From Enoplolaimus lenunculus (taxonomy: Eukaryota > Nematoda > Enoplea > Enoplida > Thoracostomopsidae): a stretch of 64,000 nucleotides of DNA. Of the stretch, positions 1,291 through 55,340 are shown in pieces (position 1 is the first letter of the stretch; every line of letters begins with the position of its first letter). The position numbers were made by a program, and so were the translations under genes. Below the pieces are notes generated by a model that worked only from the letters and a program-made list of their open reading frames with translations, ran no database searches and had not been told where the DNA came from. The stretch covers positions 29,061 to 93,060 of the forward strand of contig JASANG010001444.1 in NCBI GenBank assembly GCA_030248215.1. The letters run 5' to 3'.

Positions 1291-1437
1291 GGCCCACGTT
1301 ACTTTAAGGGGCGTCCAGGTTTCTGGTGAGTCTATGAAAGAGTGGGTTTGGATTCTAGATTACATTGTTTGCTTAGGCATAGGCTTAGGTATACGTACGC
1401 TTAATCTACTACTACGCCCATAAAAGTAACATTGGCC
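1291..1437 (+). mobile_element. MITE family A copy 1 with TTAGGC-type core
   Basis: The left end is GGCCCACGTTACTTTAAGGG and the right end is the inverted ..AAAGTAACATTGGCC. It is flanked by a perfect 8-bp duplication GAGGTGAC (1283-1290 and 1438-1445). Inside is a short run of TTAGGC-like hexamers. Confidence 0.8.
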
Positions 1438-1756
1438 GAGGTGACTATAGATTCATTAAAGATTAGAGCAAATTGAATTTGAATTGGCGTTTGGATGCTG
1501 AGGGGTGATGTGTATAGAGATAAAAGAGATAAAACGAGACTATCATAAATGTGTGTATTTAATTTATGTATTGCTTGAGGTAATGTGTGTGTGGGTGTGG
1601 AATTTTTAGGGCGGAAAGTTTTGCGAAAAGGTGGGTTGAACGAAACGTTGATCGGAACGAGTATATGTGAGGTTTTCAACGCAAGAATCGAATGCGTTTA
1701 GTGGCGGACATTTTTAAAGTAGGGTATGCGTATTTGAAGGACGTTGAATTTTGCTT

Positions 1757-2040
1757 GGTACCAAGAGGTTGGGGGTAGGGCGGTAGCACCAAGAGTTTGG
1801 GGGTAGGGCGGTACCAAGAGTGGGGTAGGGCAATACCAAGAGTTTGGGTTAGGGCGGTACCAAGAGTTTGGGGGTACGGCGGTACCAAGAGTTTGGGGGT
1901 AGGGCGGTACCAAGAGTGGGGTAGGGCAATACCAAGAGTTTGGGTTAGGGCGGTACCAAGAGTTTGGGGGTACGGCGGTATCAAGAGTTTGGGGTTGGGC
2001 GGTACCAAGAGGATGAGGGTAGGGCGGTACCAAGAAGTGC
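1757..2040. repeat. Minisatellite GGTACCAAGAG with higher-order structure
   Basis: About eleven units of roughly 22-25 bp, each with GGTACCAAGAG and a G-rich tail (TTTGGGGGTAGGGC). A block of four unit variants of about 96 bp occurs twice in a row (about 1798-1893 and 1894-1989). Open frames on both strands through it are a by-product of the repeat. Confidence 0.85.
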
Positions 2041-2349
2041 AGGGTGGCACCGAATCTACGATTTGATCGAATCCGAATTCATTGCTAATTTGCCGAATCC
2101 GAATCTTGCACGTTGCAAATTCCAGTTATATCTATGATTTGTTTCAGAATATCAACGTGATGCCAGCAAACGTTAATATATTTCGTGCCCGGCCTCAGTT
2201 TTGAGATTTGCGACGTGAAGCAAAAAATTTTTTATTATTATAAACATGATATTTACAATTTTTAGTGTTTAAAGCTGAAACAAACATATTGCCGAACACT
2301 GTTGGATTCGGCTTTTTCACATCCGAATCCGAACCTTTGTTGCCTCCTG
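2040..2349 (-). mobile_element. hAT-like MITE, CAGGGTGGCACCGAATC family
   Basis: It starts CAGGGTGGCACCGAATC and ends with the rough inverse (..CCGAACCTTTGTTGCCTCCTG). A longer related copy lies in the opposite direction at 29759-30135. No clear 8-bp duplication. Confidence 0.55.
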
Positions 2350-2521
2350 ACTGTACGCTGCCACTATGCATACTACACAATGTGTATTGGTTATATTGCA
2401 TATGCACCAGGATAAGTATGTCTCACATGCTTACAGTCGCCAAACCGAGACGGACAGTGACGGATGTCAACAAACGTATAGCGCCATCCGTAGAAGTTGT
2501 AAACTATTTGATTAGTTTTTC

Positions 2522-2686
2522 GGCCCATGTTACTTTAAGGGGCGTCCAGGTTTCTGGTGGGTCCGCAAAAGAGTAGGTTTAGATTCTAGATTATATTTTT
2601 GCTTAGGCTTAGAAACCCATTTTTGCAACGCTTAGGCTTAGGAATACGCTTAATCTACTGTTACGCCAATCAAAGTAACATTGGCC
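2522..2686 (+). mobile_element. MITE family A copy 2
   Basis: It begins GGCCCATGTTACTTTAAGGG and ends CAAAGTAACATTGGCC, with CTTAGG hexamers inside. The flanks do not match each other, but the right flank matches the right flank of copy 4 (21228 on), which suggests recombination between copies. Confidence 0.75.
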
Positions 2687-2831
2687 GGAATGCTTATGTT
2701 GTCGCGTGTCGTGAGGGTGGTAACCTGGTTTGAAGTGTGCTTTCGATCTGTCGGCCATGTTTCTGTGTTTGTGTGTATGCTTTATTTATAGTAGGAAAAA
2801 GAGAAACTCGTAACCTGTTGGTGGCCTTAGG

Positions 2832-3055
2832 TTTAGGCTTAGGCATACGCTTAATCTACTGTTACGCTCCTTAAAGTAACATTAGGCTTAGAAACCCATT
2901 TTTGCAACGCTTACTGTTAGGCTTAGGCTTAGGAACTCATTTTCCAACGCTTAGGCTTAGGCATACGCTTAATCTACTGTTACGCCCCTTAAAGTAACCT
3001 TAGGCTTAGGAATACGCTTAATTTACTGTTAACGCCCATTAAAGTAACATTGGCC
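2832..3055 (+). mobile_element. Tandem truncated right ends of family A
   Basis: Three right ends of family A (TACGCTTAATCTACTGTTACG..AAAGTAAC) follow one another, separated by CTTAGG hexamer runs. The last closes with ACATTGGCC. It looks like repeated slippage or nested insertion. Confidence 0.65.
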
Positions 3056-3439
3056 AGTTTATCTAAGAAAACCAATACGTTTCCTAAGCTATACAATAGA
3101 CTGATTGCTATTTGCAGTAAGTAAATGCTAACGTTTCATCCAGTGTTTGTGTTTTGTTAGCAGTCGTCGTCTAGAATGTGGAGTCTCGCATTCGCATCAA
3201 AAGTAGCATTTATGTGTGCATTTTTAACAACGTGAAATACAAACGATATGCATGCATTTGCACTGCAACTGCGCTCAAATTGCAAATTAGTGCAATTGCT
3301 ATTTTTGAGTGTGAATTGCCTTGTCGGCGGTGAACGGACAATGAGTTCGCGCGAAGGTTTGACAGTACAACTGACAAGTTAGTTCGATGATAATAGTATT
3401 TAAAACTTTAGGGGGTAACTTAAAGATGTTGTACGTCAT

Positions 3440-3590
3440 GGGGGGAGGGGGGGTGTTGGTGGAAAAATTGTGGGGCGGGGGTGGAAAAATTGTAGGGTGG
3501 GGGTGGAAAAATTGTGGGGTGGGGGTGGTTAAATTGTGGGGTGGGGGTGGAAAAATTGTGGGGTGGGGGTGGAAAAATTGTGGGGTAGGC
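3440..3590 (+). repeat. G-rich minisatellite, GGGGTGGGGGTGGAAAAATTG
   Basis: About six units of 22 bp contain GGGGTGGGGGTGG followed by AAAAATTGT. The + strand has many runs of four or five G, so it could form G-quadruplexes. Confidence 0.85.
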
Positions 3591-3708
3591 AAATGGGTTA
3601 TGGGTTTATGTTGTATATACGATTGAATTGAACGCTTGTTTATATTTTCAATGATTTTTTCTTAATGATTTTTTGTGTATTTGAGCCAAGAGCGTATGAT
3701 GCATAGTA

Positions 3709-3986
3709 ACAAGAGTATGCAACTGGGTACATTGTGTGTAGAAAAGAATGTCCCAGGTAAGTGTTGCGTTTTTGGCCGACCCCCCCTGTGTTTAGATGGG
3801 GGTATAACCTGTGCGAACCATGCCACTTTATGTATCCGGCAACAAATTGCTCAGGTTATAATTTAATTTAGGGTTATTGCATGCGACAGTGACCTCCCTC
3901 GAAACAAAGGCGAGAGTCGGCCAAAAACGCAACGCCCGGTGGTACATTTGGTACCATGCGGACCCCAAAGGGTTGCACACTCTTGT
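3709..3986 (+). mobile_element. MITE family I copy 1
   Basis: The ends are inverted: ACAAGAGTATGCAACT at the left and GGTTGCACACTCTTGT at the right. The interior carries GCGTTTTTGGCCGACCCCCC and its near inverse, so it can fold back. A sister copy lies at 15559-15832 and a half copy near 50960-51060. Confidence 0.7.
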
Positions 3987-4279
3987 ATCATGCACTCTTG
4001 TTTGAACTGATTACTACTGATGAATTTTACAGTAGTTTTCAGTTTACATAGTTTCACAGCGGTGTCCATGTATAATACAGGATGTGGAGCGATGTTGAGG
4101 ACCGACAAATCGGCGTCCAGTGGCTGTTTAAACGTCGACTTTTTAAATATTCGGCATGATTTCGATGGCGATATTCCAAGTTTGGGTCAGGACTTGTGAT
4201 GTTCGCAGACTGATTTTTTTGGTTCGGTAACATATGGGATTCCAACATACATATAACAGTGGCAAATTGCATCATTTTA

Positions 4280-4690
4280 AAGTTTCAGTTCCAGTTACGG
4301 TTGAAGTTCGAATCCGAGTTGAAATCCGATTTGGAACTTGTTTCCAATCGGAATTCTACTCGGAGTCGGAATAGCCGGGGTCGAATAGGAACTAAATTTT
4401 GCCGGCAGAGGAACCGGAACAGGAATTTGAACTTGTTTGCCGAAACAGGAATTTAAAATAATTTTTAACACCGGATTACTGTTTTACTTTTCAATAAACC
4501 CGTCGAAAACGCGCCGGACGCAAGTTTTTCCGGATTTCTGTTTTCGTTCTTTTCATCACTCGTACAAAATCAATCACCCAATTTACCGAAACCGGAAGGT
4601 GAAAAAGTACCGGAACTTGAATTCCGGTTGCATCCGAATCATGAAAGTTGGAAATTTTACATGTTTTTATAATTTGTTTCTTGCGATGTG
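4280..4690. repeat. hAT-like MITE fragments of the CCGGAAC type
   Basis: Repeated GGAATTC/CCGGAAC motifs (CAGTTCCAGTTACGG..CCGGAACAGG..ACCGAAACCGGAAGGTG) join parts of families seen at 18750 and 19551. Boundaries cannot be set. Confidence 0.4.
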
Positions 4691-4990
4691 TCGATAGCAA
4701 AATTTTTGCTGATTCCGATTCTTATTTTGAATATATGCCGGCGCAGATTCCAACTTGATTACACCATGCTTATAGAATAGATTGGATACTGCATTACATC
4801 ACGAAGCGAAGACTTAAACCCTAACCACCATAAACAATTATAATTTTATGAAAAAGGTTCATTTCACTTATATGTGCTAAGAAGTGAAATTAATAGCATT
4901 TCAACTGACTGGTTATGTGCAAAAAGCATCGGCAAAGAATCGGCAATTTTTTGCAGCACCGCTGTCGATTAATCGTCGGATTGATAATTT
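4690..4990. mobile_element. Family K (TGCCGATTAATCGGCA) MITE, degenerate
   Basis: Contains GTGCAAAAAGCATCGGCAAAG and AATCGGCAATTTTTTGCAG, matching the right part of the element at 22171-23215. The outer ends have decayed. Confidence 0.4.
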
Positions 4991-5203
4991 CAGATGAGAA
5001 ATTTACTAACTGAACTGAACGAGGTGAAATGCGTCAAGTTTGACCAATAATTTTGGACCTACAAATCGTTTAATGGTTAAAAGTTTTGGAACAACACCGT
5101 CAAAATTCCGGTTCATGCGTTCTGCAATGCCGGAACAGGAATCGATTTTTGGCATAAATTCCGGTGGAACCGTGCAGAATAGCGTTTTCATCTTACGGTT
5201 TTG

Positions 5204-5505
5204 GGCCCATGTAAACATCAGGGGCGGAGAGTTTTTCTGTGGGACTGCAATAGAGTAAGCTTAGGCTTTAGACTATTTTTTAATTGGCGTAGGTTTAGGC
5301 TTAGGAATATGCTCATTCTTACGTTTAGGCTTACGCTTAGGCTTAGGAATATGCTCATTCTTACGCCTAGGCTTACGCTTAGGCTTAGGAATATGCTCAT
5401 TCTTACGCTTAGGCTTAGGCATATGCTCATTCTTACGCTTAGGCTTACGCTTAGGCTTAGGAATATGCGTATAATACTGTTCCGCCCTGGTTCTTTACAT
5501 TGGCC
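5204..5505 (+). mobile_element. MITE family B copy 1 with long TTAGGC-type arrays
   Basis: The left end is GGCCCATGTAAACATCAGGG and the right end is TTCCGCCCTGG..TACATTGGCC. The flanks CGGTTTTG and CGTTTTTG differ at one of 8 bases, consistent with an 8-bp duplication. Inside, units of TTACGCTTAGGCTTAGGAAT plus ATGCTCATTC recur about five times. Confidence 0.75.
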
Positions 5506-11512: not shown

Positions 11513-11650
11513 GGGCTCGCGTAAAGATCAGGGGCGAAACGGTTTTCTGGAGGACTGCAATAGAGTAAGGTTAACCTTTATACTAATTTTCTGCTTAGCC
11601 TTAGGTTTTAGCTCATTCGCTTGCGCGAAGGCTTAAGCCATTGCTTATAC
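11513..11650 (+). mobile_element. MITE family B left half, truncated
   Basis: AGATCAGGGGCGAAACGGTT and GACTGCAATAGAGTAAG are the left part of family B. The hexamer array is reduced and the right end missing. Confidence 0.55.
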
Positions 11651-14250: not shown

Positions 14251-14554
14251 GGTCAATGGAAAGAACAGGGGCGGAACGGTATTATAAGCATGTTCCTAAG
14301 CCTAAGCCTAAGCGTAAGAATGAACATATTCCTAAGCGTAAGAATGAGCATATTCCTAAGCCTAAGTTTAAACGTAAGCCTAAGCGTAAGAATGAGCATA
14401 TTCCTAAGCCTAAGTTTAAACGTAAGCCTAAGCGTAAGAAGGAGTATATTACTAAGCATAAGCCTAAGTCCAGCAAAAAAATTAGTCTAAACTTTAAGTT
14501 TACTCTATTGTAGTCCCACAGAAAAACGTTCCGCCCCTGATGTTTACATGGGCC
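14251..14554 (-). mobile_element. MITE family B copy 2 with TTAGGC-type arrays (reverse)
   Basis: Ends are GGTCAATG..ACAGGGGCGGAACGGT and CGTTCCGCCCCTG..ACATGGGCC. Flanked by a perfect 8-bp duplication GGAATCTC (14243-14250 and 14555-14562). The core alternates CCTAAGCCTAAGCG with TAAGAATGAGCATATT. This is the clearest family B copy. Confidence 0.85.
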
Positions 14555-15184: not shown

Positions 15185-15357
15185 GGCCCATATTACTTTT
15201 AGGGGCATCCAGGTTTCTGGTGGGTCTATAGTACGTTTAGATTCTAGATTTCATTTTTTGCTTAGGCTTAGGCGTCGGATCACATTTTTGCAACGATTAG
15301 GCTTAGGCTTAGGAATGCGCTTAATCTACTGTTACGCCCCTAAAAGTAGCATTGGCC
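15185..15357 (+). mobile_element. MITE family A copy 3 with TTAGGC-type core
   Basis: Starts GGCCCATATTACTTTTAGGG, ends AAAAGTAGCATTGGCC, and is flanked by a perfect 8-bp duplication ATAATTTC (15177-15184 and 15358-15365). Confidence 0.85.
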
Positions 15358-15904: not shown

Positions 15905-16096
15905 GGCCCATGTGTAGAACAGGGCCGGATCGTTTTCCGGCGGGGCTGTAATAGAGTCAGTTTGAGCTTTTGACTTACTTTTTGCTTAGACTTAGGCTTA
16001 GGAATAGGCTCATCCTTCTGCTTAGGCTAAAGCTTATGCTTAGGTTTAGGAATATGCTAATACTATACTGTTCCGGACTGGTTCTATACATGGGCC
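15905..16096 (+). mobile_element. MITE family B copy 3
   Basis: Starts GGCCCATGTGTAGAACAGGG and ends GTTCTATACATGGGCC. The flanks GTCTGTAA and GACTGTAA match at seven of eight bases. The hexamer core is partly degraded. Confidence 0.75.
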
Positions 16097-21049: not shown

Positions 21050-21227
21050 GGCCCATGTTACTTTAAGGGGCGTCCAGGTTTCTGGTGGGTCTATAAAAGA
21101 GTAGGTTTGGATTCTAGATTACATTTTTTGCTTAGGCTTAGGCTTAGGAACCCGTTTTTGCAACGCTTAGGCTTAGGCTTAGGAATACGCTTAATCTACT
21201 GTTACGCCCCTCAAAGTAACATTGGCC
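21050..21227 (+). mobile_element. MITE family A copy 4 with TTAGGC-type core
   Basis: Starts GGCCCATGTTACTTTAAGGG and ends TCAAAGTAACATTGGCC. Flanked by a perfect 8-bp duplication GGAATGCT (21042-21049 and 21228-21235). Inside are runs of CTTAGG hexamers separated by AACCCGTTTTTGCAACG. Confidence 0.88.
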
Positions 21228-21548
21228 GGAATGCTTATGGTGTCGCGTGTCGTGAGGGTGGTAACCTGGTTTGAAGTGTGCTTTCGATCTGTCGTCCTTG
21301 TTTCTGTGTTTGTGTGTATGCTTTATTTATAGTAGGAAAAAGAGAAACTCGTAACCTGTTGTTGGCTGATGTTGCCTGTTTTATTATGACGAATGCGAAT
21401 TGTGGAAATATGAAATTGCTATAGCCAGGTTTATCTCGCTCCCGTATGGTGTTGTTGTTTTTTTCGTTTGTGTTTATACTTGAGGGTGTGTAACTAATAG
21501 TTTGTGGAGTTCAGTATAAATAATGTATACATTATATATTATATATTG

Positions 21549-21886
21549 GGCTAATGTTACTTTTATAGTCGTACCAGTGGATTAAGCGTATTCCTAAGCC
21601 TAAGCATAAACGTTGCAAAAGCGTATCCCTACGCCTAAGCCTAATCGTTGCAAAAGCGTATTCCTAGAAAGGCTGCAAAAGCGTATTCATAAGCCTAAGC
21701 GTTGCAAAAGCGTATTCCTAAGCCTAAGCCTAAACGTTGAAAAAGCGTATTCCTAAGCCTAAGCCTAAACGTTGCAAACGCTTATTCCTACGCCTAAGCC
21801 TAAGCAAAAAATGTAGTCTAGAACGTAAGCCTACTCTTTTTACACACCCACCAGAAACCGGGACGGCGTTAAAAGTAACATGAGCC
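21549..21886 (-). mobile_element. MITE family A copy 5, expanded TTAGGC-type array (reverse)
   Basis: Ends are GGCTAATGTTACTTTTATAG and ..GTTAAAAGTAACATGAGCC, flanked by a perfect 8-bp duplication ATATATTG (21541-21548 and 21887-21894). The core has about seven blocks of CCTAAG hexamers separated by CGTTGCAAAAGCGTATTC, so the array has grown compared with copies 3 and 4. Confidence 0.88.
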
Positions 21887-24547: not shown

Positions 24548-24723
24548 GGCCCATTTATAGATCAGGGGTGGGCGGTTTTGACGTGGGACTGCTATTGGAG
24601 TAGGCGTAACCTTAAGACTAATTTTTTTTCTTCGGCTCAAGTTTTTAAATATAAGCGTAGCATTACGCCTTAGACTTAGGAATATGCTTATACTACTGTT
24701 ACGGACCTGATTGTTACATTGGC
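24548..24723 (+). mobile_element. MITE family B copy, degenerate
   Basis: GGCCCATTTATAGATCAGGG, then GTGGGACTGC..GAGTAGGCG and an end GTTACGGACC..TTACATTGGC. The hexamer core is mostly decayed. Confidence 0.6.
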
Positions 24724-24729
24724 TTGTAG

Positions 24730-32447: not shown

Positions 32448-32598
32448 GGCCAATGTATAGAACAGGGCCGGCACAGCAGTATAAGCATATTGCTAAGCCT
32501 TAGCCTAAGCCTAAACAAAAAATTAGTCTAAAAGCTTAAGCTTACTCTATTGCAGTCTCGCTGGAAAACGTTCCGGCCCTGTTCTATATACATGGTCC
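32448..32598 (-). mobile_element. MITE family B copy 4, small
   Basis: GGCCAATGTATAGAACAGGG to GTTCCGGCCCTGTTC..CATGGTCC, with CCTAAGCCTAAAC hexamers inside. The right edge directly adjoins the target duplication of the next element. Confidence 0.7.
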
Positions 32599-39700: not shown

Positions 39701-42700
39701 AACGGTAGCATAGCGGTGGCCCAAATTCGTTTTCTGTATTAATTATCGTTGTTGACTACATGTTTGCGGCTTATTCTATTTTTGGGGGTGAGCGAGCCTC
39801 CTTGTAAAAGCATGATGGCTCGTTAAGGCAGGCTTATAGCCGGTGCTTCCTCAAGTTTACATATCTACGGTCCCAGTTGGCCACCATTTAACTCACTTTT
39901 CTATTTTTGGGTTAGGAAGAGAAGCAAGAGGTTAGTCGAGTTTTGGGATTTGAGTACTTTTTCGGTTCATTATTATTAATTGGAATATTGTTTGGTTTTA
40001 GTGTCGTCCATATACAAGCGAAATCGTTTCTACACGATCCAGGAACGCCGATCTATTATTCTATGTTTGAAAGTAACGCAGGAGGTGGCTCCAGTAGGCC
40101 AAGCTCAACGTTTGCCATCGAGGAAACGAGCGGAGTTGTTCGGTTGCTGAAAGCGTTGGATGCAGATGACCCTACACAGAATGGAGATCATTTTTTGAAA
40201 GGTTAGTTTTCATGGATGGTGATGAATATCAAAAGGCGAAGATGATAATAAACAAGCGGTTTAAAGTGGGTGTTCGGGCAAGGGGACATGAAGGATAGAA
40301 GGATATGGTAGACTGTTTATGGAGCGTAGCTAAGAGATTTAGGGTTAAACCTTCATTAGTTTGGTTTTTTAGCCCAAAATTAAAACCTAAAATATGCTTA
40401 CACTGGCTTCGAAAATTTAAAACTGAACGGAACTCTATTCAGATTATATCATGAGCATAAGGTGAAAGCTTGATTCGCTTAGTATGACAGTTTGTTTTTG
40501 TTTAAGTTTTTGCACGTGAAGGCACGATGGAAAGCACAGCGGATTTGGTAATCAAAATTGCCGATGTCAACGATAATTCACCCGTGTTCTCACAGCCATT
40601 ATATTCGAAAAATGTGAAAGAAAATGTTCCGATTGGGCAAACGATTCTGGAAGGTGAGGGTTTTGCAATTTGAGTGTTGCTGTTTCTTTCTCTTTCTGCT
40701 GACGTGGTGTCGTCGGTTCGGACAGTGCCATTACATCCTTTGGGTTCGTCCGCAGTGTTTCAATGGCTGGCTTTCAGCCAACTGAAAAATTGTGTGTTGA
40801 TGAGCATATTATGCCGTATGTCTTCGAACATTTTGAATCTAGGATACTCGTAGTAGGGTACAACCGGTTATCCTACTTACATGTTTTAGTTGTTGCGTTG
40901 GATAAAGATCGAGGTGTGAATGCTGACGTAAAATATACGGTGGATAATGGGAATTTCACTGTTAATGAAAATGGTCACATTTCGGCTCAACGACGCCTGG
41001 ATGCAGATCAAACCGGGCAAGGACGGTTTATATACAAGTTCAAAGTTCATGCGCAAGATAAAGGCGTGCCGACTAGGACGACTTATGCTGACGTGAGTTG
41101 GTTTGGCGCATGCCTTGATGTAAAATTAGACTCAGGCCCCGGCCTGGTAGGGCTAATGCTTCATGGCTTTATGTTGAATACTGTTTGATGATGATAATAA
41201 TAATGGTTTTCTTTTGATATTTTAAAGTCTAATGAGCACCAGATATTTGAATTTACGTTTCTGTTCTGGACCTATTTTATACCTTGGCTTAAATTTTGAC
41301 GAACGTGGAAACCCCTCATATAACTTCCTGCAGCGCAGGAACCTTCCAGTTGGACAGAATCATTTTTGCTTTCACAATTATTTGATGAATTTTGATTTTT
41401 TAGGTTCATATCACAACCGAAAATGTAAACGATGAAGCTCCGATATTTCGTCCAACAGATCAGTATTCAGCGTATGTGGCGGAAGATGCGCAGTTTGGAA
41501 CACCGATTATCACGATTGAAAGTAAAGATCCTGATCGGGTAAGCATTAATATTTTGGGTTTCTTACCCTGTTTGTAAATAACGTTTGCAATAAGGCGCGA
41601 AATACATTGCTTGCTGGCATTAAAATAATGTAAATACGTAGTGGCATTCGAATTTCAAGTCAAAATGCTTTACCTAAATGAAAACATTCCGCTTGCTTAG
41701 CTTACTATATGATCTTAATTTTCAGGACAAAGTGACGTATGCGTTTCGGTTGGCGAACGGTGAAACAGCGCTTGAAGATGGATTCTTCTCGATTGATGCG
41801 CCGACAGGTAATTTTTTATTTGAACTGAGATACATTTACTTTTACTCACTGAAATGGCTAAGGCCTAAGCGTTATTAGTGATAAAAGAGGTGCATGCGAA
41901 GTTACCGTTACGTTGGAAAAATTTCAACGTTAGTTTTTGACCGACGATAGGATGCTAAAAGCGTGGCTGTAAGGTTTCAAGACAAGATTTTTAGTGCGTA
42001 TTTTATTGAAGGAACAATCAAGTTGAGCTCGGCAGTTGAACCGAACGGAAATGCGTTGACTGAACGTGATATGTATAATTTGACCGTGATCGCAACTGAT
42101 GATGATGGCTGTTGTGAACCGAAAGCTGGAGTCACACATTCGAGCGCCGCGATTGTTATCATTGGTAAGCGTGGATGCTCCCTGCCGCCCTCCCTGGTGG
42201 CGGCAGATACGCTGAGAAGACTCCAACTTTCGATCTGCTCCCAGGTTAAAACTGGGGATGTGGATACTTCAAGATTGAACTTAGGGAATGCTTCCCACAA
42301 AGAGTATGGTGAGAGCGAGCTCGGGTGGAAGGAAAAGTAAGGGTGGGATTACTGGAGATAGACTTTCCTTTGGTTGTATGGAAGAAAACGACAGAAATCT
42401 TTGAATTTCGTATAGTCGCAATGGTATAGTGCATTATATATCTAAACGTAAGTCAGTTTTGCACATTGTATCACAGGATGTTGGTAAAAACAAACGTTAA
42501 TGTCTGACTTGTTATTGTGCCAAAGTACATAAATCACAAATTTTTGCATCTGTAAAAACTAAATACGTGTCTAGAAAGGACGTAAATGTAAAAAACGAAA
42601 TTAAACACGTCCCCGCACATTTCGGTTCTTAAAGTTCTCCTCCTTGGTAGTGGCAGCTTGTCCCCTCTGTCCACTCGCCAGCAGCATCAGGAAATTTCGC

Positions 42701-48700: not shown

Positions 48701-51700
48701 AGTGATAAAGGTTAGTTGAAAATCGATTATTTGGTTTCTGCGGAACGCTCCAGCTTTATGCTTGATAGGTCCTGTAGCTCTCGAACTAATATGTGGTGAT
48801 GTTTGAAATTCAGCATATGTTTCAAAGTTGATTTGTCCTACTTCTGTGTATGATTAAGGTCCGCAGTTACAGTAGTTCGTCAGTTTGAAAACTTATCGCT
48901 AACTGGAGATAAGTGCGATGCGCATTTGGGAATATGGACCCTAGACGCAAAGATGGGCAGTCTTCAAAATTGAATCTTTATCGCACGGTTTAATATCTCG
49001 ACCGAACGTGAGGCTACTCGTTGTAGTAAAATCGGGAGCGCTGTGGGCCGAGGTGTGGTGTACTGCGAGCGAGTATTTGTTTAGCTATAAAACAGTGTTT
49101 TTTCGTTTTTGAGTCACGAAAGGTTAAGTCTTATATTCATACATGTAGGTTTTAGCAGCGAGAACTCGCAGCTGCAAGTTACACGAGTACCTTGCAGCTG
49201 CAAACGCTAAATTTTGACATGAAAGCCAAATTTCATAGACGGTAAAGTAGTAATTTATAAGACTTGCGCTGCCGTCCGTCTCGCAATCATAGCAAAATTT
49301 TCATGAAGGGCTCTATTATGGCATTGCATTCATATCCAATTTCCTGCCAGTCTGGTTATGATGCAATACGGTGAAACGGCTGTCTGAGCGTACTCGTTAT
49401 GTACAAGAGTAAAAATGCAGATAAAACATTGACAATGAATTTGAATTTTGCTATTTTAATAATTTAGACGCAAAATTGTCGTACAGTTTGGACGATGCTG
49501 GAAATGAAGACAGCACATTTGGAATGCGGACATCCAGTGGACAGTTGTTTATCAACGGACAACTTGATTATGAAACGAAACAGGTAAATGTTGTAGTTTA
49601 GTGTTGTTAGAGATTTAGGGCAGACACCATATTACGGATTTTAGCATTGTATTTTATTGACCGCTTTTTAAAAACGACGCAAAATAGTGAATTACTTAGA
49701 AGGTGCCGGACGGTGACGGACGGCTACGGACGGCGCCGCATGACAAAGAACACTTTAGGTTGCTTAGCTTTGATAGAATACCGGTAGGAGATATTTAGTT
49801 TTATATTTTGAAGAATAAAATGGATCGGAGAACTTGCAAATTGTAAACTCCAGTGTTGTTGATGCATATTTTTGGCTGAAATTTAGCTGGATTTGATTCG
49901 TTGTTTAGAAATACTATCTGACCGTGATTGCAAGTGACGGTGTCAACAAAGCGAGCACTAAAGTTGAAGTGGACGTTGGTGATGTTAACGATAACGCTCC
50001 GGTATTCGAACAGAAAGTCTACAAGTTGACGATGAAGGAAGAAAATGCTGATAACAAACCGTTGCCGCATTGGATATTGACGGTTAGTAGATGTGTCACA
50101 GTAACTGGCGGTTAGCCGGATAGGGATATAAGTCAAGCTGTCATGAAATATCCGAATGTGGTTTAGTATCCGGTGGAAAATCGACATCTGTCTCTAGTTT
50201 TGAAACGATCACCAACTTGCCATGATATTTGAAACCAAAATTCCCTCAAAGGCAAAGAGACTAAACAATTTAAATTTAATCATATTGTTGTATGTCTGAA
50301 TATTGGAATTTTCAATTAGCATTTGATTCAACATTTGGATGATTTCGTTATTCCGTGACGTTCGCTGGAATTTTGGTGAATTTTTGTAATTTTGAGTATT
50401 TATTACTTTGGGCCATGTTATTTATTAGTGGCCTGTCGACTTTTGTTTCTAATATTAATCTTGTTTCAAAAGCTGTTGCTGTTAGATTGTAGTAAATGCT
50501 GCCAGGGCCGGAGCAGACACCCCCATTTTAGGGGGGAGGGCCGCATCCTAACCGGTTAAAACAAAAGCCGCCGAAGTTTTAATATGCGCTTCACGACCGC
50601 TTCGCTCAAGAGTTTGGGTCCCCAATCCTGGAGTTTGGGGGAGCCCCCACCCCTGTGTGCTCCAGCACTGAATGCTGCACTGACATTTAGATAATTCCTT
50701 TACTATCACGCAGTGGAAATGTTATAAAAATTCACATTTTGCTTACAGGTACGCGCTGCCGACATGGACAGCCCTGATGAACAAATCCGGTATCAGCTGT
50801 TGGGACAAGGTGCAAAAGAATATTTTACTATCAACGATAAATCTGGTCAGATTTTTGTTCAAAAACCGCTCGATCGAGATCCACCCGAAGGCGCTGATGT
50901 CTGGAATTTAATTGTTCAGGTATGTGTTGCTTGGTATTAACTATGCGGTTTAAATTGTGACTTCCCCCTCTAATTGAGGGTGTGGTCGGGCAGAAATAAA
51001 ACGCGCGCTGGTACAATTTGTACCACGTAGAACCCCAGTAGTTGCTCACACACTTGCTTAAGAGCGATCTTCTATTCCTGGTGGTATTATCAAGAGTGGA
51101 TGGCATCTGTTGGACAAGTAGTACGCATATCGGTGGTGTAGAAAATGCCTAACAAACGTTGTGTTTAGCCACTTAAGTAAAAATATGCAGTAGCATTACA
51201 CGATCTGTGTAAAAATAGTATTAACTCCCTTTGCGTTTTGTTAGCATTTCATTTTTTTGTGTGTTTTTAAGGCAACGGACGAAAATGGACGTGGATTGTC
51301 CGGATATGCAGATGTGATCGTGACACTGCAAGACATCAATGACAATGCGCCGATATTCGAAAAAGGAACGGTGGTTGGATATGTCAAAGAAGAAGAAGAG
51401 CCACGTAAGTGGCTGGAGACATGCTGGTTTCCTTACGCCTGGGCTCAATGACCTTGATCGTAAATGCGTATAACACCTGTCACCAGTTAGCAATAGGTTT
51501 TCAAAATTCTTGAGTTGCGGATCTCAAAATTGGTACAGAATTATGACAAATTCAATGCGAAAAATGCGCTAAATTAAAATTTGTAACGTTCTACTGTTAC
51601 AGGTGCAACGGCTTAGGATTGTGCTTAAGGTTTTGTTTAGTCTTAGTGTTACATCGCGTCACTAGTCGTCTATAAAGGGTGTTTTGTATTTTTAGCACCA

Positions 51701-52820
51701 GATGGTATATGGGTAATGCCGATGACCGCAACGGACTACGATGATAAACGGCCGCCGAGTCGGAATGCAATTTTGTCGTATCACATTCAAAAGAACAAAG
51801 CTTTCACTGCGAACAAAGATATCTTTCGGATTGATCCGTTGTCAGGAAATCTTTATGTCATGGTAAGTCGAGACAGATTGTAGGGCAGCAATAACAGGGA
51901 TGGGGCGCTTCTATTTTGAAGTACCTTTCTAGTCCAACCCTAAACGCCATCATGCCTTTTGTACTAAGAATTCCAAGTTACGGGGCTAAAACATGGTCAC
52001 TTAATTTTTAGACAGGGGTCTCATAACCAGTAACCAGAATAAGTTTTCAATTTAATTTAAAAAAAAATGACTTGAAGTGTTAAATTTCACAGCAACATTA
52101 TATTGTTACCAACACAGCGAGCATTATATCAATTTAATCTGTGGTTGATTGGAATACCAATTCTTAATATCAGTAGCCCGTGGCCTTTCATAGCGCCTAC
52201 GCGATCTCGGCATGTAATATAAACCCATGCAACAGCTTACTGGGTTACTCTTGCTGTGACGGTAGTACGCAGGAGCAACAACAAAGCACTATAGAGTCAT
52301 GGACAGAACCAAGTACGCAATAATTGTGACTGCGTCTGCGATGGCGTTTTATACTCTCGTCTAGAATTCGTTTGCTGACGACCAGTGGCGTCTTCAAGCG
52401 TGATAGCAGTCTCGCGTTCCAAACATCGGTTGTAACCGTGCTTGTAAGCGATTGAAAATTTAAAAATAAGCAATCGCGACATGATTGTTGTAGCGACGAG
52501 TAGTTGTAATCACTTCTGCAAGCGATCGCCTGCAAGAAACCACCAATTGCTACCGGGACCGCGATTTAAAACGCGGTTACATTAGCTATCAATTCTGTTC
52601 GTGACTGCTATTGGAAAAGCAATGTTTGTGTTATGGTGAGGTTGTTGTTTTATCAATCATTTTGTTTTTCAGGTGAAACTTGATCGCGAAAACGCATCTC
52701 AACGGGCGTTTGAAATTGAAGTTGTCGCTAAAGACGATGGAAACCCTTCGTTGTCAGGTTGGTGTTTTTTAATTTAATTTTTTATTATAAACTCAGTGTT
52801 GGAGAAATTTAAACAATAAC

Positions 52821-52854
<34 letters not shown>

Positions 52855-55340
52855 TTAATAACAAGAATAATAAAGAGAAAAATTGCTTAGTAAGAAATCT
52901 GTGAGATCGCAAGTCCAGTACACAAGGTTCCAATACGAATTGCTCTTAAAGTTGGAAGCATACATTTTACGTACGAGGTATGGGGAGCATTGCGGCCTGT
53001 AGAGCATGGAACATTCCGGTCAAAAAATTGCCGGTTCCTGTTATTAGCCACTGAAGGCATTTGGCAAAACCTGGTATTTTAAAGAAAGTTTGATATACTC
53101 ATGAACTTTGTGCCAATTCTTTTGAGCATTTTGCTGGTAAAAATGATCCGTAAGACTACTTCTGTAAACTATTAATTTTTGTCACATTTTTTTCGATTTA
53201 TGCTTATTCATATGATTGTGAGCTTAGAGACTGTAATTTTGAAATAGTAATAATGCGCTTGCGTTGCGTTGTACCATGCTTGCCGCTCGCTTACTCCCTC
53301 GCGACTGAATCTGCTCAAGTATTCAAATTGCACATCCGACCATACCAAGTATTTAAAGGGCAGATTTACAAAATTTATGCAAATTACAATTACAATTTTT
53401 TGTTTTCAGGAACCGGAATTGCCCGGATTGAAGTGATCGATCGCAACGATAATCCGCCAACGTTTGAGTTTGAACGTTATGATGCAAGCGTCGAGGTAAT
53501 GCAACTTCCACAATAACATGCGTACACCAGGTGACTTTTGATGGGGTAGTGTCATGGACACTGAAGTCAAAAAAGCTTCAGTATCCTGAACGTTGAAGCC
53601 AAAAAGCTTCAGTGTCCTGGACATTGAAGCCATTGGCGTCAACGTTCAGGATGCTGAAGCTTCCCTTTTTGGCTTCAGCATCCTTCACACTGAAGCATTT
53701 TTGGTTTCAGCATGCCACCTGGTATACGCATGTTATTGTGGAAGTTGCATAAAAGCGAAGTTGAAATGCTACATTAAAATGTTTTCTACGCATGCATGAA
53801 ATACCGATGCTCTTGATATGGATGCATGTAATATGTTTAAATTGGCAAAGAAAACAAACAGTGTGCGTGACATAGGTTGATGGAACTGCATCCCTATTTT
53901 TAAAAAGTGTCTAGCAATATCACCAGTTTGGTAACTGGTTTTGCGAGTTTGCCAGTTGCTCGAAAGCGTGCTAATAGTTTGGCTTGTAAGCTTAGAAGTT
54001 GATGGGAAGTTTGATTATATTATTATGTATTGCGATAATTGTATTGAGCGTATTTTTTTTGTTTTGCTTGCGTATGTTTTGGTTTAATATTTTTGTTCTG
54101 ATTTTTGGTTTCAGGAAACAGCGAAAATCGGTTTCGCTGTTATGACGCTATCGGCAAAAGATCCAGATGATGAAGCTGAAGACAATTTGTTGACATACGA
54201 AAGTAAGTGATTTTAAACCAATTTCTCATTAAACGTTTATAGGATGGGACTTGTGGGTTTGTGTTACAACGTGTGACAATTACCAATAGTGTTTGCATTC
54301 GAAGCAGGTTCTTTTTAGTCTGTTGATAACTACGAATAGATTTGCCGAGCTGGTATGGAAACAACAAAGGAAGTATAAGGAACCCGGATAGATGCTACTT
54401 TTAGCGTCGTCCCGTTTTTTGTGAGCTGCAAAAGAGTAGGATTAGATTTTAGATTATTTTTTATTCAAGCTTAGGCTTAGGTTTTCACTTTTCAACGCTT
54501 AAGCTTAGGCTTTGGAATATAATTAATCTACAGTTACGACCCAGAAATTACATTGGCCAGAACTGTAAATCGTCTAGTTAGGTGACAATGAATAATAACG
54601 TATGTGGTGATTGTCTGACAAATCTTAATTAGTCACTAACGAATTATTGGTGTGTGTGTGGCATTGTTTATTCGAGCTGGTTTATATACCTTGCCACCTC
54701 TAATGATGTTGAAAAAATAGTATTTCTGTTAAGTAAATTTTAGCTGAGACCAAAGCCCGTATTTTCAAATGTGTGTAGCACCTATTACCAGGTGGTGATA
54801 GGTCTTGTAACTTTCAAACCAGAGAATGATGAGGTTTGAAATTCAGCAAATTTACTGCATTTGGTATACTCTACTTCTGTGCAAATTTTGATATCTACAG
54901 ATGCAACAACTCGTTAGTTTGAAAACCTAGTACTAACTGGTTTGTAGGTGCTATATGCATTTGAGAATATAAGCCCTAATGTTGTATTGTTGTAAACTGT
55001 GTGTAGTGCCTATCGCCAGTTAGTTAGTAATAGGGTTTGAAACAACTATCTCAGCTTACGTGTAAAACAAATTCTGTTCAATCAGTACGTCAACACTACT
55101 GTTGAGCCTATCGCTATTTGATAATCCTTTTTACTTTATAAGGCTTACTAAACAACGCGAAGGCGCTATGTGTATTTAAGGATATGGGCAAAAAACTACG
55201 CTTGTGCTGTGACCGCGTCTATGATTACGAATATTTTAATTTCAGTAATTGAAGATGGAAGTTTTGCGACGAACTTTTTCTACATGACCAGTGAACCAGA
55301 CAGCTCTGGCTCCCGAGTTGGCGTGCTTCGAGTCGAAAAG
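34590..55340 (+). CDS. hmr-1: Neural-type classical cadherin (HMR-1/CadN-like), 29 exons, 3' end outside window
   Basis: This gene encodes a calcium-dependent homophilic adhesion receptor. Family members act at the cell surface in epithelia and axons and bind beta-catenin through a cytoplasmic tail. Joining 29 exons across GT-AG introns keeps one reading frame of about 2,040 residues from the first ATG, or about 1,860 from the ATG at 35145. After a furin-type RPKR site near residue 636 there are twelve complete cadherin repeats with linkers such as DVNDNSPVF, DINDNKPDF and DINDNAPYF, LDRE/FDRE motifs, and the start of a thirteenth. Repeat order and details, including a paired cysteine (DDGCC) in the fifth repeat and the TGPNR segment in the ninth, match my memory of Drosophila CadN; this was not aligned. 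The LamG/EGF modules, transmembrane helix and tail are missing, so the gene must continue past a final intron of more than 8.6 kb. The symbol follows the nematode orthologue and is inferred. My hand count of exon 12 is one base off frame, which may be a counting error. Confidence 0.88.
34634..36066. promoter_or_regulatory. Cluster of TGACGTCA (CRE/ATF-type) palindromes within cadherin exon 1
   Basis: Perfect TGACGTCA octamers occur at about 34634, 34960, 35044, 35125, 35146 and 36059, with one-mismatch versions at 34930, 34981, 35002 and 36048. Chance would predict far less than one perfect site in 1.4 kb. Most lie before the preferred start ATG at 35145. In the reading frame they encode the recurring MTS, VTS or DVT tripeptides. 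Binding by CREB/ATF-type factors is inferred from the motif only. Confidence 0.4.
37377..37459 (+). CDS. hmr-1: Cadherin exon 2: end of repeat 1
   Basis: The acceptor TTTTCAG precedes the exon and the donor GTATGA follows. It encodes VEILVQDVDEPPKFITAP, the calcium linker closing the first mature repeat. It begins in phase 1 and ends in phase 0. Confidence 0.88.
38125..38236 (+). CDS. hmr-1: Cadherin exon 3: repeat 2, first part
   Basis: It follows the acceptor TTTTTTAG and ends at GGAC|GTGAGT. It encodes AVVPIETQPDITIFKF and then ARDENGDGDRDVTY, with the acidic calcium-binding cluster. It ends in phase 1. Confidence 0.88.
38655..38761 (+). CDS. hmr-1: Cadherin exon 4: repeat 2, middle
   Basis: The acceptor GTTTTAG joins a split proline codon. 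It encodes DAKFTIDNLGRVRT and then YKVHVQACEAD, the strand and core pattern of a cadherin fold. The donor is GTAAGT and the end is phase 0. Confidence 0.85.
38950..39156. mobile_element. PIF/Harbinger-like MITE (family C) in cadherin intron 4
   Basis: TTA then GGGTTGCGCTGTA at the left, and TATAGCGCCACCC then TAA at the right. The body is rich in GGCGCCGTCCGTCACC and its inverse, so it can fold into a long hairpin. Confidence 0.8.
39470..39606 (+). CDS. hmr-1: Cadherin exon 5: end of repeat 2, start of repeat 3
   Basis: The acceptor GATTTTAG precedes EKKELGKQRQ. MREPQFLEESYEVSVAED then follows, a linker with an atypical calcium motif (GGMREPQF in place of DVNDNAPxF), as in this region of CadN. 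It ends in phase 2 at CCAG|GTTTGT. Confidence 0.83.
40002..40201 (+). CDS. hmr-1: Cadherin exon 6: repeat 3 core
   Basis: The acceptor TTTTAG completes a split serine. It encodes VVHIQAKSF, then YYSMFESNAGG, FAIEETSGVVRLLKALDADD and HFLK. The IEETSGVVRL stretch is the usual cadherin strand D/E motif. It ends in phase 1 before GTTAGT. Confidence 0.85.
40507..40653 (+). CDS. hmr-1: Cadherin exon 7: end of repeat 3, start of repeat 4
   Basis: It encodes STADLVIKIADVNDNSPVF, a canonical linker, then YSKNVKENVPIGQTILE, the start of repeat 4. The acceptor is TTTAAG, the donor GTGAGG and the end is phase 1. Confidence 0.9.
40890..41092 (+). CDS. hmr-1: Cadherin exon 8: repeat 4 core
   Basis: It follows ATGTTTTAG and encodes VALDKDRGVNADVKYTVD, then FTVNENGHISAQRRLDAD and FKVHAQDKGVPTRTTYAD. 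LDAD and AQDKG are the expected calcium-site motifs. It ends in phase 0 before GTGAGT. Confidence 0.9.
41404..41538 (+). CDS. hmr-1: Cadherin exon 9: end of repeat 4, start of repeat 5
   Basis: It encodes VHITTENVNDEAPIF, then YVAEDAQFGTPIITIESKDP. The linker has NDEAP rather than NDNAP. The acceptor is TTTTTAG, the donor GTAAGC and the exon is phase 0 at both ends. Confidence 0.9.
41726..41807 (+). CDS. hmr-1: Cadherin exon 10: repeat 5, middle
   Basis: It encodes DKVTYAFRLANGETALEDGF and FSIDAPTG. The acceptor is TTTTCAG, the donor GTAATT and the end is phase 1. The short exon fits the frame on both sides. Confidence 0.88.
42012..42164 (+). CDS. hmr-1: Cadherin exon 11: repeat 5 with conserved Cys pair
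   Basis: It encodes TIKLSSAVEPNG, then YNLTVIATDDDGCCEPKAG and HSSAAIVII. The adjacent cysteines after the DDDG calcium site are also present in CadN at this position, as I recall it. The acceptor is TTGAAG, the donor GTAAGC and the end is phase 1. Confidence 0.88.
42850..42955 (+). CDS. hmr-1: Cadherin exon 12: end of repeat 5, start of repeat 6
   Basis: It encodes GIKDVNNNKPVFKECDTY, then AKVPEGKHRDLSIIS. Both halves are cadherin-like, but by my count the exon is one base short of keeping frame between them, near 42900. I treat this as a likely counting error rather than a frameshift. The donor is GTATGA. Confidence 0.8.
43191..43266 (-). repeat. tRNA-like sequence (SINE head or tRNA relic) in intron 12
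   Basis: On the minus strand GGGGTTCGAATCCC is a good B box. About 50 bases before it CTCCTAAAGTGAGCAGC resembles an A-box region. The stem pairing is poor, so a SINE head or relic is more likely than a working tRNA. Confidence 0.3.
43427..43603 (+). CDS. hmr-1: Cadherin exon 13: repeat 6 core
   Basis: It encodes VKATDDDSGLNGQISYSIY, then PFLINASTGELM and VEFDREERPFEDVTVK. These are standard cadherin motifs (ATDDDSGxNG, INxSTGEL, FDRE). It is phase 0 at both ends and the donor is GTGAGT. Confidence 0.92.
43613..43827 (+). mobile_element. Family H MITE in cadherin intron 13
   Basis: Inner ends ACTTATTAACAGTTGGTGAT and CCAGCTAGTGATAGGTGC..CACATTTGAGAATACTGGCC are inverted relatives. It starts only about 10 bases after the exon 13 donor. 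Confidence 0.55.
44281..44440 (+). CDS. hmr-1: Cadherin exon 14: end of repeat 6, start of repeat 7
   Basis: It encodes GTDKGDRPLIGFCHFTVAI, then QDINDNKPDFDRQEY and SIGKSVLTVFA. The acceptor is GTTCCAG, the donor GTATTG and the end is phase 1. Confidence 0.92.
44841..45060 (+). mobile_element. Family H MITE in cadherin intron 14, degenerate
   Basis: CTGTATTTTCAAATGTGTGT and AGCACGTATCACCAGTTG match the left end at 54755. The right part is diverged. Confidence 0.5.
45178..45326 (+). CDS. hmr-1: Cadherin exon 15: repeat 7, first part
   Basis: It encodes DDRDAPSNARISYSLATEN, then SFFDIRNSSGEIVLVKSIP. The acceptor is TTGACAG, the donor GTAAGT and the end is phase 0. Confidence 0.9.
45486..45721 (+). 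CDS. hmr-1: Cadherin exon 16: end of repeat 7, start of repeat 8
   Basis: It encodes KRELRFLVNASDNGDPPLW, then LLKIADSDQPFPVFQPS and ERTVLENIPLNTILFRCC. The linker has DSDQPFPVF in place of DxNDNxPxF, so this interdomain site is expected to bind calcium weakly. It ends in phase 2. Confidence 0.9.
45895..46140 (+). repeat. hAT-like family M fragment in intron 16
   Basis: GTGCCAAACGGAACTGGATT, ACCGGAATCGGAGCTG and TCGGAACTCCGTTTGCA are in the family M order but the middle is deleted. Confidence 0.45.
46326..46479 (+). CDS. hmr-1: Cadherin exon 17: repeat 8 core
   Basis: It encodes GIFRAFQEKKGRTDCAVIR, then NMKPLDFERVKRYDLTLSAS. The LDFE and YDLTLSAS strand pattern is typical. The acceptor is TTTTTAG, the donor GTAAGT and the end is phase 0. 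Confidence 0.88.
46637..47002 (+). mobile_element. hAT-like MITE, GGAACAGGAA family, in cadherin intron 17
   Basis: CAACAGGAACTAAACTTTGC to GGAACAGGAATTCTGG..CTCTG, with TTTCATCATCAAGTTTGCG and GATTAGACATAATTTG inside, as at 18752-19150. Confidence 0.6.
47191..47388 (+). CDS. hmr-1: Cadherin exon 18: end of repeat 8, start of repeat 9
   Basis: It encodes LTIFVNDVNDNIPKFQGDRF, then VKEEQEPMPFRGPAITQAVA and DSDSADNGYNK. It is phase 0 at both ends and the donor is GTACAG. Confidence 0.92.
47418..47712. mobile_element. PIF/Harbinger-like MITE (family C) in cadherin intron 18
   Basis: TTA then GGGTTGCGCTACACTTTTG at the left and GTATAGCGCACAC then TAA at the right. The interior repeats GACGGACGGCGCCG-type units and their inverse. 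Confidence 0.8.
48120..48297 (+). CDS. hmr-1: Cadherin exon 19: repeat 9 core
   Basis: It encodes VMYSIYDGPYSKLFVINPED, then GRIWANAKFDREK and IIEVEAQDSAPSALP, ending GSTGPNR. The EARDxAPSA..GPN segment is also found in CadN. It ends in phase 1 before GTAAGT. Confidence 0.92.
48316..48420. repeat. Family H fragment in intron 19
   Basis: GTAGTACCTATCACTAGTTA and TTCGAACCCGTGATTAGTGA are family H left-end sequences. Confidence 0.45.
48567..48710 (+). CDS. hmr-1: Cadherin exon 20: end of repeat 9, start of repeat 10
   Basis: It encodes IVKVQIVIEDINDNAPYF, then LYEVKIDENAEQGQGVLTVK and AHDSDK. The acceptor is TTTCAG, the donor GTTAGT and the end is phase 1. Confidence 0.92.
48750..48953. mobile_element. 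Family H MITE in intron 20
   Basis: TTGATAGGTCCTGTAGCTCTC to GTTTGAAAACTTATCGCTAA and CATTTGGGAATATGGACCCT. It shares GTTTGAAATTCAGCA with the copy at 54755. Confidence 0.55.
49468..49583 (+). CDS. hmr-1: Cadherin exon 21: repeat 10 core
   Basis: It encodes DAKLSYSLDDAGNEDSTFGM, then SSGQLFINGQLDYETKQ. The LDYE motif is canonical. The acceptor is AATTTAG and the donor GTAAAT; it is phase 0 at the end. Confidence 0.9.
49690..49757. repeat. Family C remnant in intron 21
   Basis: Only AGGTGCCGGACGGTGACGGA and CGGACGGCGCCGCATGAC remain of a Harbinger-like MITE. Confidence 0.45.
49909..50082 (+). CDS. hmr-1: Cadherin exon 22: end of repeat 10, start of repeat 11
   Basis: It encodes YYLTVIASDGVNKAS, then VDVGDVNDNAPVFEQKVY and MKEENADNKPLPHWILT. 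It is phase 0 at both ends and the donor is GTTAGT. Confidence 0.92.
50503..50670. mobile_element. hAT-like MITE in cadherin intron 22 with perfect 8-bp duplication
   Basis: CAGGGCCGGAGCAGACACCC at the left and GTGTGCTCCAGCACTG at the right are inverted. Flanked by AATGCTGC on both sides (50495-50502 and 50671-50678). G- and C-runs lie at the inner edges. Confidence 0.82.
50749..50919 (+). CDS. hmr-1: Cadherin exon 23: repeat 11 core
   Basis: It encodes VRAADMDSPDEQIRYQLLGQ, then YFTINDKSGQIFVQKPLDRD and VWNLIVQ. It is phase 0 at both ends, with acceptor CTTACAG and donor GTATGT. Confidence 0.92.
50960..51060. repeat. Family I MITE half copy in intron 23
   Basis: CTTCCCCCTCTAATTGAGGG, TGGTACAATTTGTACCACGT and GTTGCTCACACACTTGCT match the inner and right parts of the copy at 3709-3986. 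Confidence 0.5.
51272..51404 (+). CDS. hmr-1: Cadherin exon 24: end of repeat 11, start of repeat 12
   Basis: It encodes ATDENGRGLSGYADVIVTL, then QDINDNAPIFEKGTV and YVKEEEEP. The acceptor is TTTTTAAG, the donor GTAAGT and the end is phase 1. Confidence 0.92.
51696..51862 (+). CDS. hmr-1: Cadherin exon 25: repeat 12 core
   Basis: It encodes GIWVMPMTATDYDDKRPPSR, then ILSYHIQKN and FRIDPLSGNLYVM. The ATDYDD calcium cluster matches CadN at this position. The end is phase 0 before GTAAGT. Confidence 0.9.
52200..52560. other. Unassigned moderate-GC block in intron 25
   Basis: It differs from the AT-rich intron around it. Short antisense open frames cover it but are not recognisable. It may be another decayed repeat. 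Confidence 0.3.
52673..52757 (+). CDS. hmr-1: Cadherin exon 26: repeat 12, LDRE strand
   Basis: It encodes VKLDRENASQRAFEIEVVAK, then DDGNPSLS. The acceptor is TTTTTCAG, the donor GTTGGT and the end is phase 1. Confidence 0.9.
52816..52872. repeat. (AAT)n microsatellite in intron 26
   Basis: A run of AAT units from about 52816 to 52870 with few interruptions. Confidence 0.95.
53410..53495 (+). CDS. hmr-1: Cadherin exon 27: end of repeat 12
   Basis: It encodes TGIARIEVIDRNDNPPTFEF, then YDASVE. The linker is DRNDNPPTF. The donor GTAATG lies directly beside a 33-bp inverted-repeat arm that starts at 53501. Confidence 0.9.
53501..53748. mobile_element. Fold-back MITE in intron 27, next to the exon 27 donor
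   Basis: The left arm (53501-53533, GCAACTTCCACAATAACATG..) and right arm (53716-53748) are inverted repeats with about one mismatch in 33 bases. The interior has further self-complementary pieces built on CTTCAGTGTCC/GGACACTGAAG and AAGCCAAAAAGCTTCAG. The left arm starts about five bases after the GT of the donor. Confidence 0.85.
54115..54202 (+). CDS. hmr-1: Cadherin exon 28: start of repeat 13
   Basis: It encodes ETAKIGFAVMTLSAKDPDDE, then AEDNLLTYE. The acceptor is TTTCAG, the donor GTAAGT and the end is phase 1. Confidence 0.9.
54386..54558 (+). mobile_element. MITE family A copy 6 in cadherin intron 28, degenerate
   Basis: GATGCTACTTTTAGCGTCG at the left and TTACGACCCAGAAATTACAT plus TGGCC at the right. 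CTTAGGCTTAGG remains inside with GAGTAGGATTAGATTTTAGA, as in copy 4. Confidence 0.65.
54755..54974 (+). mobile_element. Family H MITE, best copy, in cadherin intron 28
   Basis: GCCCGTATTTTCAAATGTGT plus GTAGCACCTATTACC at the left is the inverse of GTAGGTGCTATATGCATTTG plus AGAATATAAGCCC at the right. Confidence 0.65.
55246..55340 (+). CDS. hmr-1: Cadherin exon 29: repeat 13, last exon seen in window
   Basis: It encodes IIEDGSFATNFFYMTSEPD, then SGSRVGVLRVEK. It ends in phase 0 before GTAAGT. The expected next motif (an LDYE strand) was not found in the remaining 8.6 kb, so the next exon must lie beyond 64,000. Confidence 0.85.

Follow-up and report, generated by a model that had tools for sequence, protein, structure and literature searches.

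A superfamily of non-autonomous DNA transposons in Enoplolaimus lenunculus, with at least three subfamilies (A, B and B2), very probably carries the hexamer TTAGGC from site to site as passive cargo. TTAGGC is the nematode telomere unit, and interstitial telomere-like repeats are commonly taken as traces left behind when chromosomes fused or breaks were repaired. Here, a transposition route is visible in the sequence, in the form of target duplications, an empty site, a fixed orientation and thousands of copies. The DNA from which the analysis started, hereafter the window, is a stretch of 64,000 nucleotides that forms the right end (29061-93060) of a contig of 93,060 bases, in an assembly of 296.3 Mb and 3,185 contigs.

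The window contains 11 related MITEs of 147-534 bp (Table 1), which were read together with their flanks, their ends being paired via a degenerate terminal motif. Among the ten elements with pairable ends, five are flanked by a perfect 8-bp target duplication and three by a duplication matching at 7 of 8 positions. An earlier note on this DNA had reported the five perfect duplications, and all of them are present. The same note had assigned the 11 copies to families A and B, with GGCC ends and a core of hexamers. They are indeed related MITEs, but the copy at 24548 contains no exact TTAGGC, and those at 32448 and 54386 each have one decayed end. A single family B-type end at 11514 (3 mismatches) has no convincing partner and may be a lone real end. 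Between 34590 and 53516, the reading frames resemble by eye those of a large cadherin gene, and the Pfam Cadherin domain was found in one of seven frames tested (40703-41188, E 3e-9); some of the window MITEs may sit within long introns of this cadherin-like gene.

Table 1. MITE copies, captured flank and empty site in the window, in window positions.
Position	Strand	Feature	TTAGGC hexamers	Target duplication
1126-1238	+	Empty site paralogous to the 1291 insertion, in the adjacent, unbroken unit of a local duplication		Single target copy GGGCTGAC (6/8 like GAGGTGAC)
1291-1437	+	Family A MITE	1	GAGGTGAC, perfect, at 1283-1290 and 1438-1445
2522-3055	+	Composite family A element: whole A copy, captured flank, repeated partial right ends	10	AGTTTTTC/AGTTTATC (7/8)
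2687-2825	+	Captured 139 bp inside the composite element, homologous to 21228-21366
5204-5505	+	Family B MITE	9	CGGTTTTG/CGTTTTTG (7/8)
14251-14554	-	Family B MITE	7 (minus strand)	GGAATCTC, perfect
15185-15357	+	Family A MITE	4	ATAATTTC, perfect
15905-16096	+	Family B MITE (B2-like by eye)	2	GTCTGTAA/GACTGTAA (7/8)
21050-21227	+	Family A MITE, genome query	4	GGAATGCT, perfect
21228-21366	+	Flank with a homologue inside the composite element at 2687-2825
21549-21886	-	Family A MITE; a 35-bp unit, made up of a TTAGGC run and a spacer, is present about 6.7 times	10	ATATATTG, perfect
24548-24724	+	Decayed family B MITE	No exact TTAGGC	6/8
32448-32598	-	Family B MITE (B2-like by eye); one end decayed	2	No clear duplication
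54386-54558	+	Decayed family A MITE; 5' end decayed	2	No clear duplication

The elements start with GGCC(C)ATGT and end with ACATTGGCC, giving an imperfect inverted repeat of about 23 bp per side, with terminal inverted repeats of the form GGCC(C/A)ATGT..AGGG(G/C)CG. In the consensus sequences, the left part preceding the hexamers measures 81 bp in A and 85 bp in B, while the right part measures 44 bp in both. The TTAGGC hexamers between these parts run in a single orientation and are interrupted by spacers, such as AACCCATTTTTGCAACG in A and AATATGCTCATTCTTACG in B. In 74 elements or pieces of elements, the longest perfect run is between 1 and 79 units long. The array is internal in all ten hexamer-bearing window elements, its first hexamer lying 49-87 bp from one end and its last 48-87 bp from the other. 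Its direction follows that of the element: on the TTAGGC strand, the 5' end carries GGCCC and the 3' end GGCCA in 60 of 69 elements, and hexamers on both strands were seen in one of the 69.

A and B, separated by the earlier note as two families, are instead homologous subfamilies, judging from their alignment outside the terminal repeats, which scores better than every shuffle (47 against a maximum of 32 for the left part and 26 against a maximum of 17 for the right part; 500 shuffles each). The hexamer array looks like ancestral cargo of A and B, because the two are homologous outside their ends and hold the hexamer block at the same place and in the same orientation. The third subfamily, B2, was recognised from its left end, of which the sequence examined contains seven. 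In the mechanism that we propose, the common ancestor would already have carried the block of TTAGGC, a trans-acting transposase, with a Merlin-like enzyme as the best guess, would have moved the whole unit to many thousands of sites, and the hexamers would have been copied along as passive cargo of transposition.

The exact terminal motif occurs 11,098 times genome-wide (5,605+5,493) and its reversed control not once (0+0), and (TTAGGC)3 occurs 30,537 times (14,969+15,568) against 10+8 for the reversed string. Similarity searches with the window copies at 21050 and 14251 returned 1,252 and 5,790 first-look candidates, respectively, and 40 of each were scored. By extrapolation from the window and from samples of contig C1, we estimate that about 10,000 elements retain one or both ends in perfect form and that all elements together number some tens of thousands. 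When 20 sites on C1 were picked by the terminal motif alone, 16 could be paired with a second end and 4 had no convincing partner; each of the 16 paired elements contains at least one hexamer.

The search for target duplications beyond the window, which the earlier note had proposed, was carried out on sampled copies. Duplications of 8 bp with at most one mismatch flank 44 of 70 elements, 27 of them perfectly, and 26 elements lack one at this threshold. These 70 comprise 10 window elements (8 with a duplication), the 29 best matches to family A (18) and the 7 best to family B (4), both sets being ranked by similarity to a window copy and hence non-random, the 16 elements found by end motif on C1 (9) and 8 long-array elements (5). 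With shuffled partners, only 403 of 138,011 comparisons (0.3%) reach at most one mismatch, and shifting the register by 1-3 bases leaves a duplication in 0 or 1 of the 70 per shift. The duplicated targets lean to RAAATTTY. Left out of the count were 12 window pairs whose ends jointly mismatch the motif at at least 9 positions (including 11514), L087 and L096 (chance partners by eye, with no hexamer; the count with both is 44 of 72), a second pair in L039, L009 (the same as window 21050) and L075 (a presumed allele of L073). L124, with a one-base shift at its 5' end, was scored as a failure, and window 54386, missed by the end scan, stands outside the 70.

An empty site and a composite copy, both read from sequence comparison, support the mobility of these elements. 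The joined flanks of the 1291 element show 89% identity to the neighbouring unit at 1126-1238, which retains the unbroken target. In total, 52 joined-flank probes gave five spanning matches for three elements, one of them L029 against the window; of the other four, which were inspected, only that of 1291 was clean. L022 was rejected both against L105, with which it is only 78% alike with gaps nearby, and against the window, where it failed with a shorter probe; L029 was rejected against L015, as the match covers just 12 bases left of the junction. The composite element joins a family A copy, 139 bp homologous to the DNA on the right of the 21050 element and extra partial right ends within its 7/8 duplication, and it is 92% alike to the 21050 region over a 317-bp match that includes the A copy. 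Presumably, flanking DNA was captured in repair or aberrant transposition, and the whole unit then moved.

The distribution of TTAGGC in the window (either strand, TTAGGC/GCCTAA) is strongly uneven. In 2,669 bp of MITE sequence there are 51 hexamers, where base composition predicts 1.1; a satellite holds 63 in 1,649 bp, and the remaining 59,682 bp contain 20, where 25.6 are predicted. Each of the 24 window arrays with at least two units belongs to either a MITE (14) or the satellite (10). The wider sample of about 207 kb comprised the window, the sequence flanking 29 family A loci, 14 loci either related to Merlin or bearing a third type of end (see below) and the first C1 matches, with overlapping or allelic loci removed. 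The satellite aside, it contains 64 arrays of at least two units, of which 55 lie between both MITE halves, 4 beside one half and 5 outside. By set, arrays between both halves account for 14/14 in the window, 31/37 in the family A flanks, 10/10 at the first C1 matches and 0/3 at the Merlin and related loci; when overlapping loci and the satellite are included, the count is 60 of 81. Since 55 of the 64 lie between both halves, we are confident that, in the sampled sequence, most of the separate short TTAGGC tracts go back to one transposon superfamily.

These positions also bear on the conventional explanation, in which the arrays are relics of chromosome fusion or of telomere-repeat insertion at double-strand breaks and the MITEs inserted nearby or into them. 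Arrays outside MITEs, namely 5 of the 64 short ones and 3 of the 5 long ones listed below, would suit such an origin. However, it is hardly credible for the 55 arrays that are enclosed by matching left and right halves in a fixed orientation, with 8-bp duplications outside the terminal repeats. The claim of the earlier note that the hexamers moved as cargo of transposition, rather than being left by fusion or break repair, thus holds for most of the separate short arrays sampled, but not for the satellite or for those three long arrays. TTAGGC also multiplies outside MITEs, since the satellite contains more hexamers than the MITEs of the window, and MITEs account for two of the five long arrays listed.

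The satellite (60943-62591) consists of 11 near-identical units, the 111-bp core of which matches at 99-100%. After ten of the 11 units comes a perfect (TAAGCC)4-9 array, the length of which varies, and no MITE halves adjoin the satellite. Its layout resembles TALT-type telomeres, in which unique sequence alternates with the telomere repeat. A search with this satellite (40 of 191 candidates scored) found strong tandem matches only in the window's contig and weaker dispersed ones elsewhere.

Long arrays were sought as (TTAGGC)32, which has 534 matches genome-wide (82+452); those listed represent five arrays, on contigs C2, C47, C81, C84 and C86. Two are part of MITEs, one on C2 with a longest perfect run of 79 units and a 7/8 duplication, and one on C81 with 65 perfect units and the perfect duplication AGAACAGG. 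The other three lie outside recognised MITEs and contain 33 perfect units on C47 (233050-233750, L069), 35 on C84 (49950-50750, L071), shortly after a family B-type element, and 98 on C86 (269000-270600, L072). Genome-wide, the MITE junction TTAGGAATA closes 27+22 arrays of eight or more units. Ten of these 49 arrays were fetched; all ten pass into right ends or spacers of MITEs, which the search pattern already implies, and in six the fetched stretch includes both element ends.

Hexamers and the remainder of the element have diverged to a similar extent. In the 24 elements of the window and C1, 116 of 1,290 hexamer positions (9.0%) are changed against 175 of 1,898 elsewhere (9.2%, a figure that may be inflated by a consensus set without B2). 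The corresponding values are 60/1,128 (5.3%) and 112/2,258 (5.0%) in the 29 family A elements, and 82/846 (9.7%) and 42/571 (7.4%) in the 7 family B elements. In the eight long-array elements, the flanks are diverged at 48 of 579 positions (8.3%, B2 consensus included) and the runs of 9-79 units are perfect; judging from this flank divergence, these elements appear no older than ordinary ones. The flanks differ at 6 of 82 positions in the 65-unit element and at 4 of 26 in the 79-unit element. Long perfect runs are selected for purity; 65 unchanged units beside 6 changes in 82 flank positions would not be expected without renewal, either at the present site or in the source. Array purity alone is no proof of growth at the present site, because flank divergence may predate the last insertion.

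Several contigs (C1378/C1711, C158/C702 and C2243/C2195/C621) have near-identical stretches that look like uncollapsed alleles. The presumed alleles C2243 and C2195 share the same insertion with 0 substitutions and one extra hexamer over 520 aligned positions, and C621 differs from C2243 by one substitution. In the second presumed allelic pair, C158/C702, the array length is unchanged with 15 substitutions in 698 positions. The growth after insertion suggested by the earlier note therefore has some support, from one presumed allelic trio and not from the other pair; the extra hexamer could also stem from misassembly, or the contigs compared could be duplicates and not alleles. In our model, inserted copies would decay, the hexamers like the rest of the element, except for short perfect runs that expand. 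Such expansion would most simply proceed by replication slippage or unequal exchange and would occasionally produce long perfect arrays, as in the two elements with 65 and 79 units.

Alternatively, the long MITE arrays could have been renewed by real telomeric DNA, through telomerase at breaks or recombination with chromosome ends, instead of local slippage. The perfect runs of 65 and 79 units within diverged flanks and the three pure arrays that lie outside MITEs, 33, 35 and 98 units long, in a genome that encodes telomerase, would agree with such renewal, and a precedent is found in C. elegans, where internal TTAGGC tracts can be copied to telomeres upon telomerase loss (PMC9071541). Nevertheless, we regard this as improbable: no subtelomeric sequence was recognised beside any array, presumed alleles were seen to differ in length only once, by one hexamer, the kind of step that slippage produces, and repeated blocks in elements such as L126 and L127 look like unequal exchange. 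Slippage or unequal exchange is the preferred explanation for the growth of the arrays.

Whether the hexamers are telomeric in origin is a separate matter from how they moved. The block might be an ordinary hexanucleotide minisatellite, or a set of internal transposase binding sites, that matches the nematode unit and has no relation to telomeres, which would be compatible with movement as cargo. We consider this unlikely, albeit with an appreciable chance of being right. The hexamers decay much like the rest of the element, so that no special constraint on telomere identity is visible. Variant units expand too, since (TTACGC)3 occurs 54 times and one of its runs reaches 6 units. (TTAGGC)3 is 565 times as frequent as this variant, an excess that does not go beyond the expectation for randomly ordered units (unit ratio 753:53, with a cube of about 2,900, from a sample enriched for long arrays). 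As a control for sequence-specific growth, the variant is thus non-discriminating, the unit ratio alone predicting a difference of that order or more. In addition, none of the five long arrays listed among the 534 matches lies at a contig end. On the other hand, the unit is exactly TTAGGC, and it forms long perfect arrays outside MITEs as well. The block is also internal and in a single orientation, unlike subterminal transposase-binding repeats, which occur at both ends. Furthermore, the genome contains a telomerase gene, a 729-residue open frame on C1120 matching Telomerase_RBD and RVT_1, and (TTAGGG)6 is absent from the assembly (0 matches), both of which fit a TTAGGC telomere. The first TTAGGC block was likely captured from a telomere.

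The best guess for the mobilising enzyme is a Merlin-like transposase. Members of the Merlin superfamily make target duplications of 8-9 bp and have ends that start with GG, and both features are found in the MITEs. Elements of the hAT superfamily make 8-bp duplications in which the second base is T and the seventh is A, and have ends starting with CAG or TAG; the RAAATTTY-leaning duplications and the GGCC ends do not fit hAT membership. A search for the Merlin transposase (PF12762) gave 15 matches in the assembly, and no Merlin frame enclosed by MITE ends was found at the 13 of these 15 loci that were read (2-10 kb each). The near-identical contigs C1378 and C1711 hold a Merlin frame, which is open over 342 residues on C1378; isolated MITE-like ends occur near the frame on C1378, and none encloses it. 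One complete Merlin copy (L104, C872:70049-72195) measures 2,147 bp, with inverted repeats of more than 400 bp and the 8-bp duplication AAGTTTGT on both sides. This copy and the MITEs have in common the 8-bp duplication and the GGC start, as in Merlin/IS1595-type elements. In contrast, the terminal repeats of the MITEs differ from the L104 ends beyond GGC, and no transposase was found between the MITE ends at the 13 loci read.

A third end type, GGCCCATGTTAC[C/G]CTGAGGG, was observed at L107 (C1:814920-816600) and L087 (C1:58121-58720). In L107, this end is followed by a G+C-rich minisatellite (GGGTCGGTCGGGACAGCTTCGAGCC...) in place of TTAGGC, and motifs of this minisatellite also adjoin the Merlin frame on C1378 and C1711.

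Tandem arrays that change in number within MITEs and travel along with them are already known, from the Xenopus Xstir MITE and miDNA4 and from MITEs of Donax trunculus (PMC12628747). The elements described here resemble them: they are short, non-autonomous and bounded by inverted ends, and the copy number of their internal tandem array varies. They differ from what is described there in that the array unit, TTAGGC, is identical to the nematode telomere repeat. For C. elegans, the accessible text of PMC9071541 gives 1,229 interstitial telomeric tracts, some usable as telomere templates (TALT). They share with the present tracts the hexamer, its degeneracy and the scattering over chromosomes; the same text does not tie them to a MITE family, whereas here MITEs with target duplications carry the tracts. 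The interstitial telomeric sequences that were inserted at double-strand breaks in vertebrates, mammals among them, likewise form short telomere-like arrays at internal sites, but inverted ends or 8-bp duplications, both present here, are not described in the portions of those reports at hand (PMC7215372, PMC8537989, PMC2246262). Movement of telomere repeats by mobile elements is named in PMC6410037 as a possible origin of heterochromatic interstitial arrays. Among the matches listed from the open-licence literature, no description of MITEs with TTAGGC or other telomere repeats was found.

In such a genome, TTAGGC tracts counted as fusion relics would mislead, and read-based telomere detection could be confounded by MITE-borne tracts. 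In a bolder reading, which we regard as a long shot, the MITEs would represent captured telomeric DNA spread as thousands of oriented, renewable seeds, which grow to hundreds of bp, exchange with chromosome ends and, like the TALT tracts of C. elegans, could template telomerase-independent repair or the healing of breaks into new telomeres. The many similar tracts, of differing length and at mapped sites, offer a testable system in which tract length can be measured against telomere-protein binding, fragility and telomere healing.
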